Below are positions 119 to 14,071 of a DNA stretch of 14,071 bases, piece by piece. The translations under genes and the position numbers were made by a program. The DNA is from Psychrobacter sp. GTDB lineage: Bacteria; Pseudomonadota; Gammaproteobacteria; Pseudomonadales; Moraxellaceae. The stretch lies in the NCBI GenBank assembly GCA_012270355.1, contig JAAXIL010000093.1, positions 529-14,599 of the forward strand, written 5' to 3'. Every line of letters begins with the position of its first letter. Positions within the stretch are counted from its first letter, which is position 1. Under the pieces are notes generated by a model. The model saw only the letters and a list, made by a program, of their open reading frames with translations, had not been told where the DNA came from and ran no database searches.

Positions 119-769
119 ATGAGTGACTTATCCAAAGCCAAACTAAACGCCCGAAGTATTGACCACCTCGCACCTGTCACGCCCAGCCCGATTTTTGAGC
201 TGTGCAATCGGCATCCAACGCTTGCGGTGTATGCCAATCAGTTTGTGACGTGGGACACTAATTTGTGCATCCATATCAATCGCTATTCGACTAATTTTGC
301 CATTGCCAGTTTTTTTAAGGTCATCAGGCGGTTGGGTGATGGATGGTTTTGGTATGCGATGCTGACATAGACGGTGGTACTCTATGGCTCTGAAGCACTC
401 ATTCCGTTACTTACCACGACTCTGATTAGCGGGGCAGGGCTTGTGATTTATAAATTACTCAAGGTCAAAACCGTGCGTCCGCGTCCGTATCAGGTGCATC
501 AGGTGATTGTGCTTGGCGAGCGTCCGCTTGATGTGTTTAGTTTTCCGTCCGGGCATACCCTGCAAGCAGTATTGTTTACGGTCACGCTAGGTACTTATTT
601 TCCTGCTCTGTTGCTAATTATGCTTCCATTTATGGCATTGGTTGCCTTGTCTCGCATGGTACTGGGCTTGCATTACCCCACTGATGTGCTGATTGGGGCG
701 GGCATTGGTTACGGTTTGGCACTCACTGCCCCGAGCATGCATGCGGTGTTGGCGGGGTGGTTGGTTTAA
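119..769 (+). pseudogene. PAP2-family (phosphatidic acid phosphatase type 2) membrane phosphatase, interrupted by in-frame TAG
   Basis: Read through its stop, this is a 216-residue protein of the PAP2 superfamily, membrane enzymes that dephosphorylate lipid phosphates such as phosphatidylglycerol phosphate or undecaprenyl pyrophosphate. All three family motifs lie after the stop: KxxxxxxRP (KVKTVRPRP), PSGH (FPSGHTLQ) and SRxxxxxHxxxD (SRMVLGLHYPTD), separated by hydrophobic membrane segments. The start at 119 is preceded by GAGGTG at 109-114. Codon 84 (368-370) is TAG and the same frame resumes at once with hydrophobic sequence, so this is a nonsense change, not a frameshift. A GTG at 374 could restart translation and yield a 131-residue product that keeps the catalytic motifs but lacks the N-terminal membrane part. 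The exact substrate cannot be told. The family call is firm; loss of function is likely but not certain. Confidence 0.8.
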
Positions 770-1781: not shown

Positions 1782-2486
1782 ATGGCATCTGCCTATAACT
1801 GGTCAGCCGTCGCATTCATTCTTGCCGCCATTGGTTTGGTGGTATTTATGTTGGTGGTGCCTCGTCTTTTGGGTGGTCGCTCGGGTGGATTACAAAAAGA
1901 AGAAGTTTTTGAGTCGGGCGTGGTCGGAGCTGGCAACGCCCGCATCCGCTTGTCCGCAAAATTCTATTTGGTTGCTCTGATCTATGTCATCTTGGACCTC
2001 TAAGCCTTTTTCCTTTATGCCTATGCCGTTTCGGTGCGTGAGGTCAGTTGGCTTGGCTTTGCGGCGGCGGCGGTATTTATTGGCATTTTGTTTATCGGCT
2101 TGGTTTATGAGCTTAGCCTTGGGGCGATGAATTGGTCTCCAAGTGATAAACGTAAAAAGAAACCCCGATATACCGAAGCCCCGGCTGGCTTTAATCTTGC
2201 CAGTATCACCAAATTCAACGGCATTGAAGAGTTACATACTGACCCGACAGGCAAAGTACCTGCCCAATCGTCTGGGCAAATTAACGTGTCTAACGACATT
2301 GAAGCCAATCGTCGTCACCTTGATAACATTGACCACATCAACACAACGGGTGTCATCACCTCTTACGACTTTGCCGAAGATGGGGCAAGTCCATATCCGA
2401 CCAAGCAAAAGTCTATTTCCAATTCTGGCAACAATACGGCTACTCATACCATTAAACACACTGCTTCAGTTAAGCAGGAGGGTTAA
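1782..2486 (+). pseudogene. nuoA: NADH-quinone oxidoreductase subunit A, interrupted by in-frame TAA at a conserved Glu
   Basis: NuoA is a small three-helix membrane subunit of complex I, at the joint between the peripheral and membrane arms. The start at 1782 has GAGG 7 bases upstream. The sequence follows E. coli NuoA: a first helix, FESGVVGAGNARIRLSAKFYL, then VALIYVILDL. Codon 74 (2001-2003) is TAA where homologs have Glu (E. coli VIFDVEALYLF). The same frame then continues AFFLYAYAVSVREVSWLGF, the rest of helix 2 and helix 3. One G-to-T change, GAA to TAA, would explain it. The read-through protein is 234 residues, longer than the 147 of E. coli, because of a polar C-terminal tail of about 100 residues. 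No convincing restart lies after the stop, and a truncated product would lack helix 3. The subunit is confidently identified and, as written, broken. Confidence 0.88.
2476..2482 (+). promoter_or_regulatory. Strong ribosome binding site of nuoB
   Basis: AGGAGGG, close to the full anti-Shine-Dalgarno complement, lies 7 bases before the nuoB ATG and inside the last codons of nuoA. It fixes the nuoB start at 2490. It also means nuoB can be translated independently of the interrupted nuoA, although polarity on the mRNA remains possible. Confidence 0.75.
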
Positions 2487-2489
2487 TCC

Positions 2490-3194
2490 ATGAAATACAC
2501 CTTAACCCGAGCCAACATGGACGCAAATGCGTCTTTAAATGGCGACAATTTTGATAACGCCAACCCTTATACGGCGTATCAGCGTCAAACTGTGCCTGAT
2601 CCCATAAAAGCGGAAGTGGAAAAAAATGTGTTTATGGGTAAGTTGGAGCAAATGGTGCACGCCACTGCCAACTGGGGACGTAAACACTCGCTGTGGCCAT
2701 TCAACTTTGGGACGTCTTGTTGTTATGTGGAATATGCCACAACCTTGACTGCGGTGCATGATTTGTCCCGATTTGGGGCAGAGGTCATACGTGCGTCGCC
2801 CAGGCAGGCGGACGTGATGATTGTCGCAGGCACCTGTTTTATGAAAATGGCACCCGTCATTCAACGGCTTTATGAGCAAATGCTAGAGCCAAAATGGGTG
2901 ATTTCGATGGGGGCGTGTGCCAATTCTGGCGGTATGTATGACATTTATTCGGTGGTACAAGGCGTGGATAAAATCATCCCTGTTGATGTGTATGTGCCAG
3001 GCTGTCCGCCACGCCCTGAAGCATTGATTCAAGCCTTGATGCTACTGCAAGAGTCCATCACCGAAGAGCGTCGTCCGCTCGGCATTCATATGAATGACCA
3101 AGGGGTGGATCAACCACACATGGTGCCTGACCTTGACCTCAAACAAGCCTATCGCATTGCTGTCAAAAATTTGCGTAGTCCCGATAGCATTTAG
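2490..3194 (+). CDS. nuoB: NADH-quinone oxidoreductase subunit B
   Basis: NuoB carries cluster N2, the last [4Fe-4S] cluster before quinone, in the connecting arm of complex I. The 234-residue protein has all four expected ligands: the tandem pair in GTSCCYVEY (C77, C78), C143 in [10 protein letters not shown] and C172 in VPGCPPRP. Their spacing equals that of E. coli C63/C64/C129/C158. [16 protein letters not shown] and the long conserved [17 protein letters not shown] region are intact. The first 45 or so residues form a polar N-terminal extension typical of a variable end. The start at 2490 is set by an AGGAGG site. The gene sits between interrupted nuoA and nuoC and shows no visible lesion. 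The stop is TAG at 3192-3194, 39 bases before nuoC. Confidence 0.97.
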
Positions 3195-3233: not shown

Positions 3234-3863
3234 ATGGTTGTTGCCGTTCAAAACGCAAAACAAACTAAACAATCAACGCTTGGTTCCAAGCCAACCATTC
3301 AGCCACAGTCTGAACCGTTGATTTTGCGTGAGTTACGCCGTAAATTTGCGGATAAATTTATCCAGCAAACCACGTTTGATGGCATCCCGACTTTATGGGT
3401 GGGTCGTGCTGATTTGCTCGATATGGTGCTTTATTTACGTACGGTGCCAAAGCCTTATGTCATGTTGCTTGATTTGTCGGCGATGGACGAGCGTTTGCGT
3501 GAACACAAAGACCCGTTTAATGAAGGCTTGCCTGAACGTGATTTCTGTGTATTTTATCATCTCATGTCACTTGAGCGTAATTCTGACATTCGTCTAAAAG
3601 TGGCGTTATTTGAAGATGATTTAAATGTGCCCACTGCGACCAAAATTTATCCCAATGCCAATTGGTATGAACGGGAAGTGTGGGACATGTTTGGCATTGT
3701 GTTTGATGGGCATCCGCATCTTACCCGCATTTTGCTACCGAAGTATTGGGAAGGTCATCCGCTTCGCAAAGAATATCATGCCCGAGCCACTGAGTTTACG
3801 CCCTATTTTTTAAATACTGCCAAACAACAATTTGAGCAAGAAAACTTGCGGTTTGTGCCTTAA
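3234..3863 (+). CDS. nuoC: NADH-quinone oxidoreductase subunit C (N-terminal part of a former NuoCD fusion)
   Basis: This is the 30-kDa-type subunit of the connecting arm, which packs against NuoD near the quinone site. The 209 residues match the NuoC half of E. coli Nuo[40 protein letters not shown] (family signature ERExxD, from E146), GHPLRKEY and ARATEF. TAAGG at 3219-3223 precedes the ATG. The stop TAA (3861-3863) falls where fused homologs read Pro-Glu-Glu-Trp-Gly-Met-Lys-Arg. Here it is Pro-stop-Glu-Trp-Gly-Met-Lys-Arg in the same frame, so one Glu codon appears converted to a stop (GAA to TAA). Residue 182 is His (CAT) in LRKEYHAR where the family has an almost invariant Pro. NuoC alone is a normal subunit in many bacteria, so this product may still be usable. 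Confidence 0.85.
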
Positions 3864-3872
3864 GAATGGGGT

Positions 3873-5057
3873 ATGAAACGCTCAGGTCGGGATGATGACT
3901 TTATGTTCATAAACCTCGGACCCAACCATCCATCCGCACATGGGGCGTTTCGGTTGGTGCTTCAGCTCGATGGTGAGGAAGTGATCGACTGCATTCCCGA
4001 TATTGGCTATCACCATCGGGGTGCCGAAAAAATGGCAGAACGCCAGACGTGGCATTCGTACATTCCTTACACGGACCGTATCGACTATCTTGGCGGGGTG
4101 ATGAATGAGTTGCCGTATGTGATGGCGGTAGAGCAATTAGCAGGCATCACAGTGCCTGAACGGGCTCAGACCATTCGGGTAATGATGAGTGAGTTTTTCC
4201 GCATTACCAATAATTTGCTGTATTTCGGCACGTTCATTCAAGATGCTGGTGGGATGACCCCCGTATTTTATATGTTTACCGACCGCCAAAAAGCTTATGA
4301 TGTGATTGAAGCAGTGACAGGCTATCGGATGCACCCAGCTTGGTTCCGTATTGGTGGCACGGCAGCAGATTTGCCACGTGGCTGGCAACGCTTGGTCAAA
4401 GAGTTTTTAGATTGGATGCCTAAGCGACTGGATGAATACGTCAAGGCGGCGATGCAGAACTCGGTGCTTAAAGGACGGACGCAAAACGTCGCTCAGTACG
4501 ATGCCAAACAGGCATTGGCTTGGGGCGTGACTGGGGCAGGATTACGAGCAACGGGTGTGGATTTTGACTTGCGTAAAGCCCGCCCGTACATGGGATATGA
4601 GAACTTTGAATTCGAAGTCCCTGTTTTTTATAATGGTGATGCCTATGATCGCTGTATGGTCAAAATTGAGGAAATGCGTCAATCGCTTCGCATCATACGT
4701 CAATGTTTGGACAATATGCCGTCAGGACCATATAAAGCAGACCATCCACTTGCGGTGCCACCGCCCAAAGACCGCACTTTGCATGATATCGAAACCTTGA
4801 TTAACCACTTTTTATCGGTATCATGGGGACCTGTCATGCCAGCAGGCGAAGCGTCCATGATGGTGGAAGCGACCAAAGGCATCAACAGTTATTATATTAC
4901 GTCGGATAAATCGACGATGAGCTACCGAACTCGCATTCGTACCCCGACGTTTGCTCATTTACAACAAATGCCGTCGGTGATTAACGGCTCGCTGGTGTCA
5001 GATGCGATTATTTATTTGGCATCCATTGATATTGTCATGGCGGATTGTGATCGATAA
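3873..5057 (+). CDS. nuoD: NADH-quinone oxidoreductase subunit D (C-terminal part of a former NuoCD fusion)
   Basis: This is the 49-kDa-type subunit that lines the quinone-binding cavity with NuoB. The reading frame continues from nuoC after its TAA. The first usable ATG is at 3873, 9 bases past the stop. The 394 residues follow E. coli NuoD throughout: [16 protein letters not shown] (quinone-site loop), [56 protein letters not shown] and [12 protein letters not shown], ending in IVMADCDR. The upstream bases are G-rich (TGGGG) but too close to the ATG for a standard Shine-Dalgarno site. Expression would probably depend on termination-reinitiation from nuoC. The span 3234-5057 read as one gene gives about 607 codons, close to E. 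coli NuoCD. The downstream gene nuoE starts 3 bases after this stop. Confidence 0.88.
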
Positions 5058-5596: not shown

Positions 5597-7161
5597 GTGA
5601 CAATATGAGTGGCAGTAATCCACAGGTTGATAAGCAAGTGATTATCGAAACCAATAAAATCGAAAATAATCAAGAAGCTATGGATTCAACTTCGGCTGAA
5701 CAGATATCAACTCATCTAAGCGTAGCCGAACAAATTGCCCGTCGGCAATCGGGTCTAGCCCCCAGTCAACTTAATGAGCAACGCATCCCGATTTATGGTG
5801 ATAAAGCCACTGCCACCAATGAAACAAAGCCCCTTACTTGGCGATTGGCACATCATGATGCCGTACTAGACTTGGCGACTTATCAAAGTTTGCAAGGCTT
5901 TGAGGGATTAAAAAAAGCGTTAGAACAAGCCCCTAAAGAAGTAGAAAACAGCATCAAGGCAGCTAACGTGCGAGGGCGGGGCGGAGCAGGGTTTAATGCA
6001 GGTTTAAAGTGGTCGTTTATGTCACCCCCTGATGGCTTGCCACGCTACTTGATTTGTAATGCAGACGAGATGGAGCCAGGCACATTCAAAGACCGTTTAC
6101 TGATGGAACGGTTGCCGTTTCAGTTGATTGAAGGCATGCTTATTACTGCCCATGCGATTGGAGCGACGGATGGTTATATCTTTATCCGTGGTGAATACAT
6201 TTTAGCGGCAGAGCGGCTTCAACAAGCAAGTGAAGAAAGACTTCCAAATCATCTGCTCGGCCAAAAGATTTTAGCCAGCGAGTTAAGTTATAATCTGCCT
6301 GATCACACTGGGGCACGACGATATATTTGCGGAGAAGAAACCGCACTCATCAACTGCTTAGAAGGTCGCCGTGCTAATCCTCGCACCAAACCGCCATTTC
6401 CGCAAATCTCGGGAGCATGGGGCAGACCGACGGTCGTCAATAATGTCGAAACCCTTAGCAATATGCCCGCCATTATGGTAAATGGAGTGGACTGGTACAC
6501 CGATTTGCCGAAAGAGAAAGGCAACAGTGAAACTCCAGGCACGAAAATATTTGGGTGCTCGGGACGGGTTAACGATGCGGGATTGTGGGAATTGCCGTTT
6601 GGTTATACTGCTCGAGAAATCATCGAAGAATTTGCGGGGGGCATGCAAGATGGTTTAACTCTAAAAGCATGGCTACCGGGTGGGGCATCGACCGACTTTT
6701 TGACCGCTGACCATTTGGATGTCCCCATGGACTTTGACAGCATTCAAGGTGACGGCAGTCGGATGGGGACTGGGCTCATTATGGTGGTGGACAGCACGCA
6801 AGACATGGTCGCCTTGCAGAAAAACTTGCAGATCTTTTTCCAGCGTGAATCTTGTGGATGGTGCACCCCATGCCGAGATGGCTTGCCTTGGGGCGTGAAG
6901 CTACTCGATGCCATGGAAAGAGGCGAGGGGCAAACGGGCGATATTGAAAAACTCGAGGCGTTGACCCGCAATTTGTGGCTGGGTAAGACGTTTTGTGCCC
7001 ATGCCCCAGGGGCGATGGAACCTTTGATGAGTAGTTTAAAATATTTCCGCACTGAGTTTGAAAGTAAAATTGATGTGCGTGAGCCAACCGAAGCAGACAT
7101 TGCCACGTCGCAGTGGGCTGAGAAAGAAATCAAAAAAGTCGTCACCGCAGTCAAGGGTTAA
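5593..7161 (+). CDS. nuoF: NADH-quinone oxidoreductase subunit F (NADH- and FMN-binding)
   Basis: NuoF binds NADH and FMN and passes electrons to [4Fe-4S] cluster N3. At 522 residues it exceeds the 445 of E. coli because of a polar N-terminal extension of about 75 residues before KPLTWRL. The start at 5593 overlaps the nuoE stop and has AAGGGG 7 bases upstream. Motifs are GRGGAGFNAGLKW, the FMN-site CNADEMEPGTFKDR, YICGEETALINCLEGRR, and the N3 ligands ESCGWCTPC (C421, C424, C427) plus C468 in KTFCAHAPG. Two spots look odd. Residue 242 is Arg (GARRYICGEE) where homologs have Gly. Residues 462-463 are Trp-Leu (NLWLGKTFC) where E. coli has Gly-Pro (LGPGKTFC), next to a cluster ligand. The frame is open and complete, but activity may be impaired. 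Confidence 0.94.
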   Translation: MSDNMSGSNPQVDKQVIIETNKIENNQEAMDSTSAEQISTHLSVAEQIARRQSGLAPSQLNEQRIPIYGDKATATNETKPLTWRLAHHDAVLDLATYQSLQGFEGLKKALEQAPKEVENSIKAANVRGRGGAGFNAGLKWSFMSPPDGLPRYLICNADEMEPGTFKDRLLMERLPFQLIEGMLITAHAIGATDGYIFIRGEYILAAERLQQASEERLPNHLLGQKILASELSYNLPDHTGARRYICGEETALINCLEGRRANPRTKPPFPQISGAWGRPTVVNNVETLSNMPAIMVNGVDWYTDLPKEKGNSETPGTKIFGCSGRVNDAGLWELPFGYTAREIIEEFAGGMQDGLTLKAWLPGGASTDFLTADHLDVPMDFDSIQGDGSRMGTGLIMVVDSTQDMVALQKNLQIFFQRESCGWCTPCRDGLPWGVKLLDAMERGEGQTGDIEKLEALTRNLWLGKTFCAHAPGAMEPLMSSLKYFRTEFESKIDVREPTEADIATSQWAEKEIKKVVTAVKG

Positions 7162-11454: not shown

Positions 11455-12015
11455 ATGTTAAAAGCAGTACTAACAACCTTAAAAAATACGGTGGTGGGCA
11501 TGTTTACCATCATCCGTTCCATGTGGATGGTCAATAGCCATGCTATCCGTCCTCGGGATACCATTTTGTATCCCGAAGAGCCTGTCCCTGTGCCGCCCCG
11601 TTTTCGAGGGCGTATCGTGTTGACGCGTGACCCTGACGGAGATGAACGCTGTGTAGCTTGCAACCTGTGTGCGGTGGCGTGCCCTGTGGGGTGCATCTCG
11701 CTACAAAAAGCAGAGCGAGAGGACGGGCGTTGGTATCCAGAGTTCATCCTCATCAATTTTAGCCGCTTTATATTTTTTGGCATGTGTGAAGAAGCCTGCC
11801 CGACGACTGCCATTCAATTGACACCCGACTTTGAACTGGGCGAATATGTGCGACAGAATCTAGTATATGACAAAGAGCATTTATTGATTTCTGGACCAGG
11901 CAAATATCCCGATTATAATTATTATCGGGTGTCGGGCATGGCGATTGCTGACAAACCTAAAGGGGCGGCGGAAAACGAAGCGGAACCCGTTGATTTACGG
12001 AGTTTGTTGCCATGA
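11455..12015 (+). CDS. nuoI: NADH-quinone oxidoreductase subunit I with two cluster-ligand cysteines replaced
   Basis: NuoI is the 23-kDa-type ferredoxin-like subunit with [4Fe-4S] clusters N6a and N6b, bridging NuoG to NuoB. The 186 residues match E. coli NuoI almost throughout: [32 protein letters not shown] and [15 protein letters not shown]. The first motif is intact (C66, C69, C72, C76 in [12 protein letters not shown]). The second should read CIFCGLCEEACP but reads [12 protein letters not shown]: residues 105 and 108 are Phe (TTT at 11767 and 11776), while C111 and C115 remain. By family knowledge N6b uses both lost Cys, so that cluster cannot form normally. Residue 99 is Leu (CTC) where E. 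coli has Arg. All three fit G-to-T changes. GAGAAAG lies upstream of the ATG. The stop overlaps the nuoJ start (ATGA). Confidence 0.93.
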
Positions 12016-13173: not shown

Positions 13174-14071
13174 ATGAGTTTTTTAGCATTGACCTTTATC
13201 TTCCCTGCTTTAAGTGCCTTGATATTGGCATTTGGACGAGGCAGACTGAATGAAGAGGCGGCCAAATACCTTGGTGTGGGTAGCATGGGGCTGTCTGCCC
13301 TTTGTGCGTTGATTGCCTCAGTAAGCTATCTCACCACACATGAGCCGAGTACGGTCATCAATGTGCCTTTATGGACTTGGATGCAAATTGGTGATTTTTC
13401 GCCAGCGTTTGGCTTAAGTTTTGATGGCTTGGCTCTCACCATGCTTGGTGTGATTACTGGGGTCGGTTTTCTCATTCATTTGTTTGCGTCATGGTACATG
13501 AAGGGCGATGCCACGTTTGCCCGCTTTTTTAGCTATATGAATTTGTTCGTTGCCAGCATGTTGTTATTGGTGCTAAGCGACAATCTATTGCTCATGTATT
13601 TGGGCTGGGAAGGGGTGGGCATCTGCTCATATTTGTTGATTGGCTATTATTACGATAATCGAGCCAATGGACGGGCGGCAATTAAAGCCTTTACCGTCAC
13701 TCGGGTCGGTGATGTGTTCTTAGCCTTTGGTTTGTTTTTATTGTTTCGAGAATTTGGCACGCTTGATATACAAACCATTATTCAAACTGCCCCGCAAGTC
13801 TTTAGTGAAAATGACCCGACTTTGAAACTTGCCACGATGATGCTGGTTGGTGGGGCGATGGGTAAGTCGGCTCAAATCCCTTTGCATACTTGGCTTGCTG
13901 ATGCGATGGCAGGTCCGACACCTGTGTCCGCTCTCATTCATGCGGCAACGATGGTGACAGCGGGCGTCTATCTGATTGCTCGCTTGCATCCCCTGTTTGT
14001 ATTGACCCCAGGCATCTTGCTGTAGTGGGTTGGGGCAGTGGGGGCCATTACGCTACTCGTCGCAGGGTTTT
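13174..14071 (+). pseudogene. nuoL: NADH-quinone oxidoreductase subunit L, 5' part, with in-frame TAG; runs off the window
   Basis: NuoL is the most distal antiporter-like proton-pumping subunit. The start at 13174 is 3 bases after nuoK and has AAGGGA 6 bases upstream. The first 283 residues follow E. coli NuoL: FDGLALTMLGVITGVGFLIH, WYMKGD, DNLLLMYLGWEGVGICSYLL (pumping Glu in WEG), AFTVTRVGDVFLAFGL, GGAMGKSAQIPLHTWLADAM (pumping Lys in GKSAQ) and GPTPVSALIHAATMVTAGVY. Codon 284 (14023-14025) is TAG, after LFVLTPGILL. The frame then continues WVGAVGAITLLVAGF to the window edge, matching the VGIVGAVTLLLAGF of E. coli, so the stop is a substitution inside the gene. E. coli NuoL has about 613 residues, so a product ending here would lack over half of its helices. 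The rest of the gene lies outside the window. Confidence 0.9.

Follow-up and report, generated by a model that had tools for sequence, protein, structure and literature searches.

Two cysteine-to-phenylalanine differences in the NuoI of a Psychrobacter draft assembly are most likely an artefact of the sequence record

According to a table in PMC8357420, the NuoI subunit of NADH-quinone oxidoreductase carries the clusters N6a and N6b. The closest described counterparts of the protein reported here are the NuoI subunits of Psychrobacter and Moraxella (NF004536, TIGR01971), with which it shares 81-92% identity over a comparison set of 80 related loci (12 of them labelled MAG), a complete motif I and the flanking nuo genes, but from which it differs in that two cysteines of motif II read as phenylalanine and in that residues 98 and 99 are odd. 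The Escherichia coli NuoI (PDB 7awt chain I) aligns to it without gaps, query 8-186 to chain 2-180, but has cysteines at the corresponding residues, 99 and 102, a numbering that follows from the alignment offset. The other known system to which the locus can be compared is that of clustered base errors in draft and metagenome assemblies, which it resembles in having patches of substitutions and apparently false stops across unrelated genes. The usual proof of such errors is read mapping, and PMC10582259 concerns the detection of assembly errors from mapped reads, whereas the present case was built from the assembled sequence alone.

The window, that is, the whole stretch of 14,071 bases that was analysed, comprises bases 529-14599 of contig C102 (14,599 bases) in a draft assembly of 1.95 Mb and 258 contigs, which is 83.25% complete with 2.63% contamination and contains N joints of 10 and 100 bases. 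In the window, a dCTP deaminase gene and a PAP2-like frame are followed by the nuo operon, which extends from nuoA into nuoL and in which nuoI sits between nuoH and nuoJ (Table 1). NuoI was single-copy in the draft genome. The genes nuoB to nuoG and nuoI were named by curated family models, whereas the names of nuoA, nuoH, nuoJ, nuoK and nuoL were assigned by gene order and sequence; these five had matches in between 66 and 80 of the 80 loci. The name PAP2 is our own reading of the sequence, and the protein of a relative had no NCBIfam match at E <= 1e-30. The named records nearest to the window NuoI were from Psychrobacter and Moraxella, plus one record titled Streptomyces, and the closest protein among the matches listed was 89% identical.

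Table 1. Location of nuoI and of the altered sites in the window
Feature	Position	Strand	Remarks
PAP2-like frame (119-769) split by in-frame stop TAG	368..370	+	No frameshift
nuoA patch: six invariant residues changed, one of them the stop TAA at 2001	1977..2009	+	Comparison with relatives
nuoB patch close to gene end: three invariant residues changed	3129..3140	+	Comparison with relatives
In-frame stop TAA dividing nuoCD into nuoC and nuoD	3861..3863	+	One open frame in 70/70 loci with both parts found
nuoF patch: residues 228, 233, 236 and 242 changed at invariant or nearly invariant positions	6274..6318	+	
nuoG patch: two consecutive stops (TAA 8013, TGA 8016) and a third changed residue	8013..8021	+	Same frame continues to 10394
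nuoI, NADH-quinone oxidoreductase subunit I	11455..12015	+	Open frame of 186 aa; NF004536; E. coli NuoI 7awt_I, E 2.6e-94
NuoI patch, residues 98, 99, 105 and 108	11746..11778	+	Usual residue in 80/80, 79/80, 80/80 and 80/80 relatives
nuoL in-frame stop TAG	14023..14025	+	<50 bases from contig end

The printed NuoI scored 317.6 bits against NF004536 (cut-off 212) and 146.7 bits against TIGR01971 (cut-off 113.05), in agreement with the preliminary description of this DNA, which held that the frame is open and that annotation would pass the gene as intact. The first CxxCxxCxxxC motif is complete (Cys 66, 69, 72 and 76), and in the second, Cys 111 and 115 are in place and residues 105 and 108 are phenylalanine as printed (codons at 11767 and 11776), where cysteine occurs in all 80 related loci. 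The window and every one of the 80 loci have the remaining six cysteines of the two motifs. The FxxF for CxxC reported earlier was thus confirmed both in the DNA and in its translation, and the proposed alignment with the NuoI of relatives of the Psychrobacter and Moraxella types left the window as the odd one out. The preliminary description had counted three changes here, Leu99, Phe105 and Phe108, all of which were found, and had missed a fourth, Ile98 (codon at 11746), at which the 80 loci have phenylalanine; at residue 99 the loci have arginine in 79 cases and glutamine in one. The rest of NuoI outside the patch is conserved. A protein truly made with FxxF could not hold N6b by the logic of the ferredoxin motif, from which we also take residues 105 and 108 to be N6b ligands.

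To compare the window with its relatives, a leave-one-out test was applied to the twelve nuo translations, in which columns invariant in all other sequences were identified and the breaks were counted for each sequence, three or more breaks making a cluster. The window broke 40 of 1894 invariant columns, including 3 stops, and contained 4 clusters; the 80 relatives had a median of 0.5 breaks, 79 of them broke 11 or fewer, and none of the 80 had a stop or a cluster at invariant columns. The most breaks among relatives were found in the divergent sequence L107 (35 of 1875), followed by L101 and L056 with 11 each. The NuoI patch is more than chance and yet, with so many strictly invariant columns broken across the nuo operon, is not special to NuoI. 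Under the strict rule it was not itself scored as a cluster, since its changes are spaced more widely than the limit allows and one of its positions, residue 99, falls short of strict invariance. The 12 loci labelled MAG showed neither an amino-acid cluster nor stops at invariant columns, which indicates that the fault is not a general trait of metagenomic bins. A stop at any position was found in 11 of the relatives' 906 nuo alignments, in 8 of them within five columns of an alignment end and in the other 3 outside the natural gene ends.

The sequence L107 (BMPS01000018.1) is titled Streptomyces cinereus JCM 3040 and carries a nuo operon of the Psychrobacter/Moraxella type, with 82% identity to the window NuoI; the record is mislabelled or contaminated, or comes from the wrong strain.

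The six in-frame stops of the window use TAA, TAG and TGA alike, which speaks against a single recoded stop codon, and no frameshift was seen in any of the window lesions. Owing to the stop at 3861, nuoC and nuoD give the appearance of two genes in the window (3234-5057), and they are fused in 70 of 70 relatives. The partner subunits of NuoI are not all encoded intact, as stops lie in nuoA, nuoCD, nuoG and nuoL, and nuoH, nuoJ and nuoK have zero changes at columns conserved in at least 98.5% of sequences. Lesions in nuoA, nuoCD, nuoG and nuoL, if real, would by themselves abolish complex I, irrespective of the NuoI sequence, and an account confined to N6b would therefore be incomplete. The loss of cluster N6b had been the central proposal of the preliminary description; the two cysteines of motif II are indeed absent from the printed sequence, but the occurrence of the loss in the organism is unsupported in view of the stops across the same assembly, and a NuoI-specific loss of N6b does not hold up as a reading of FxxF.

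At strictly invariant bases, the window had 58 changes, of which 40 were transversions by our sum, representing all eight transversion types; the pooled relatives had 413 changes, 221 of them transversions by our sum, with 74 changes in L107 alone. The earlier emphasis on G-to-T changes fits the NuoI patch but not the window, where such changes made up 8 of 58 (22 of 413 in the pooled relatives), and a G-to-T mutator or oxidation is accordingly unsupported as a general cause. The changed bases formed 5 clusters in the window, compared with a random mean of 0.53, and none of 5000 trials reached 5. However, L107 had 7 base-level clusters and 11 of the 80 relatives had at least one, so that clustering at this level supports error without proving it. 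As this control weakens clustering as a proof on its own, the case rests on the stops and on the essential genes.

Lesions elsewhere in the draft were sought in 61 sampled stretches with 332,890 readable bases (16 stretches being wholly N), to which frames from 1.21 Mb of the relative G022 were aligned. This gave 86 gene alignments over 25,921 aa with 19 stops and no frameshift seen, and it superseded a smaller earlier comparison of 43 gene alignments with 7 stops. In the control, 11 related nuo regions, one of them identical to that of G022, gave 153 alignments over 59,073 aa with 2 stops, both of which precede the nuoB start. Nine of the 19 stops in the draft were set aside as lying upstream of a presumed true start (4 in L155, 2 in L126, 1 each in L229 and L129, and 1 before nuoB), which left 6 on the window contig and 4 on other contigs. 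By our count, internal stops occurred in 5 of 13 gene alignments on the window contig and in 4 of 73 on the others. A pairwise 'dip' measure was dropped as evidence, since it did not clearly tell the draft, with 19 dips in 25,921 aa, apart from the controls, with 33 dips in 59,073 aa.

The genes struck outside the window are of unrelated functions. An in-frame TAA was found in tsaD and an in-frame TAG in purB, near a contig end, and a family search of the whole draft detected no other full copy of tsaD and no other copy of purB over the cut-off. A ftsI-type gene holds an in-frame TGA; two further transpeptidase genes score above the cut-off and have no stop, so that the ftsI-type gene may not be the only one of its kind in the draft. 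The in-frame stop of uvrB is close to an N joint of 10 bases. The rpoB frame is open and breaks 22 of 925 invariant columns, as compared with at most 6 in 29 relatives, and four of these breaks fall within five codons. This rpoB patch (G000:C147, L239) affects four residues, and three of its four changed bases are of the same kind. The genes tsaD, purB, ftsI-type and rpoB rank as essential or almost essential, which is not the case for uvrB; in particular, tsaD and purB are hardly dispensable for such a cell, and rpoB is indispensable. The assembly therefore has this kind of lesion in essential genes of unrelated function, and a living cell could hardly carry this set of stops in tsaD, purB, ftsI-type and uvrB together with the rpoB patch.

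In our opinion, the FxxF of NuoI is very probably one instance of substitution errors that occur in clusters in an assembly of poor quality and probably metagenomic origin. The patches and stops themselves are in the sequence, and their origin in sequencing or assembly, as well as the source of the draft in a metagenomic bin, is what we infer from them; sequence error is the most likely explanation because the same assembly has patches and stops in other genes that can hardly be dispensed with. The draft would carry short patches of wrong bases, each spanning from a few bases to some tens, probably at places with a consensus drawn from scarce or poor reads, and one such patch would have struck the second ferredoxin motif of nuoI, by chance sparing the open frame. 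The nuoI of the organism most likely codes for the usual cysteines, and its complex I would be functional as in relatives. The fault would belong to this assembly, and the window contig is the worst among those sampled. A part of the unusual residues may reflect true divergence of this lineage. Among the observations that run counter to a reading as error, L107, without any stop or cluster at invariant columns, approaches the window in its broken columns and exceeds it in base changes, and the stops of purB and nuoL are close to contig ends.

The denser damage on the window contig leaves some room for a real decay of complex I in the lineage, through lesions in nuoA, nuoCD, nuoG, nuoL and nuoI, with the cell relying on another NADH dehydrogenase, which we regard as unlikely. 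In addition to the denser broken genes, the assembly is small (1.95 Mb, where other members of the genus have 2.2-3.7 Mb), although its completeness is only 83%. Gene decay usually brings indels, and its lesions would be limited to dispensable genes, but no frameshift was seen in the 86 gene alignments, and stops of the same kind in tsaD and purB, together with the rpoB patch, all lie outside complex I. Furthermore, nuoH, nuoJ and nuoK are unchanged at the highly conserved columns, and a NuoI match was found in 105 of 105 genus genomes searched, the window genome included. A variant of the decay reading, in which a Psychrobacter lineage is losing complex I and the lesions of tsaD, purB and rpoB are separate draft errors, is judged slightly less likely still. 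If decay were true, it would mean a loss of complex I in a genus whose other examined members keep NuoI.

It is very unlikely that damage to the template or polymerase error before sequencing, for example in single-cell or very low-input amplification, produced reads that match the contig and differ from the organism; the nuoB, rpoB and NuoI patches are each rich in one type of change, but the spectrum across the window is mixed, with transversions of every type in the majority. Finally, the reading of FxxF as a natural, working NuoI variant with N6b lost or replaced was rejected in spite of the open frame and the conserved remainder of the protein, because Cys 105 and 108 are kept in all 80 loci and are missing from none of the best 120 of 5431 matching proteins (E <= 1e-60), so that the relatives with the same FxxF by which the preliminary description would have recognized such a variant did not appear among them, and because six in-frame stops surround it in the window.

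The FxxF of NuoI is thus most likely not a real feature but an ordinary artefact. The printed protein nevertheless passes a curated family model despite two missing cluster ligands, and in this respect it serves as a warning case: in screens for lost catalytic residues in drafts, the neighbouring and essential genes should be checked first, before biology is claimed. A tally of broken invariant columns in comparison with related sequences, with the decision left to stops in essential genes, was enough here to favour one reading clearly without recourse to reads.

Several minor observations concern the NuoI sequences of other genomes. Among the best 120 matches, the proteins P0012 and P0058 have glycine at the third cysteine of motif II and keep the positions of Cys 105 and 108; they lie on short contigs, the longest of 669 and 2992 bases, and may represent the same sort of error. 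In one other genome of the genus, NuoI matches as two overlapping pieces (G098:C1:1548951-1549495), and in another, a second, partial NuoI copy is located at a contig end (G044:C102:2-355).
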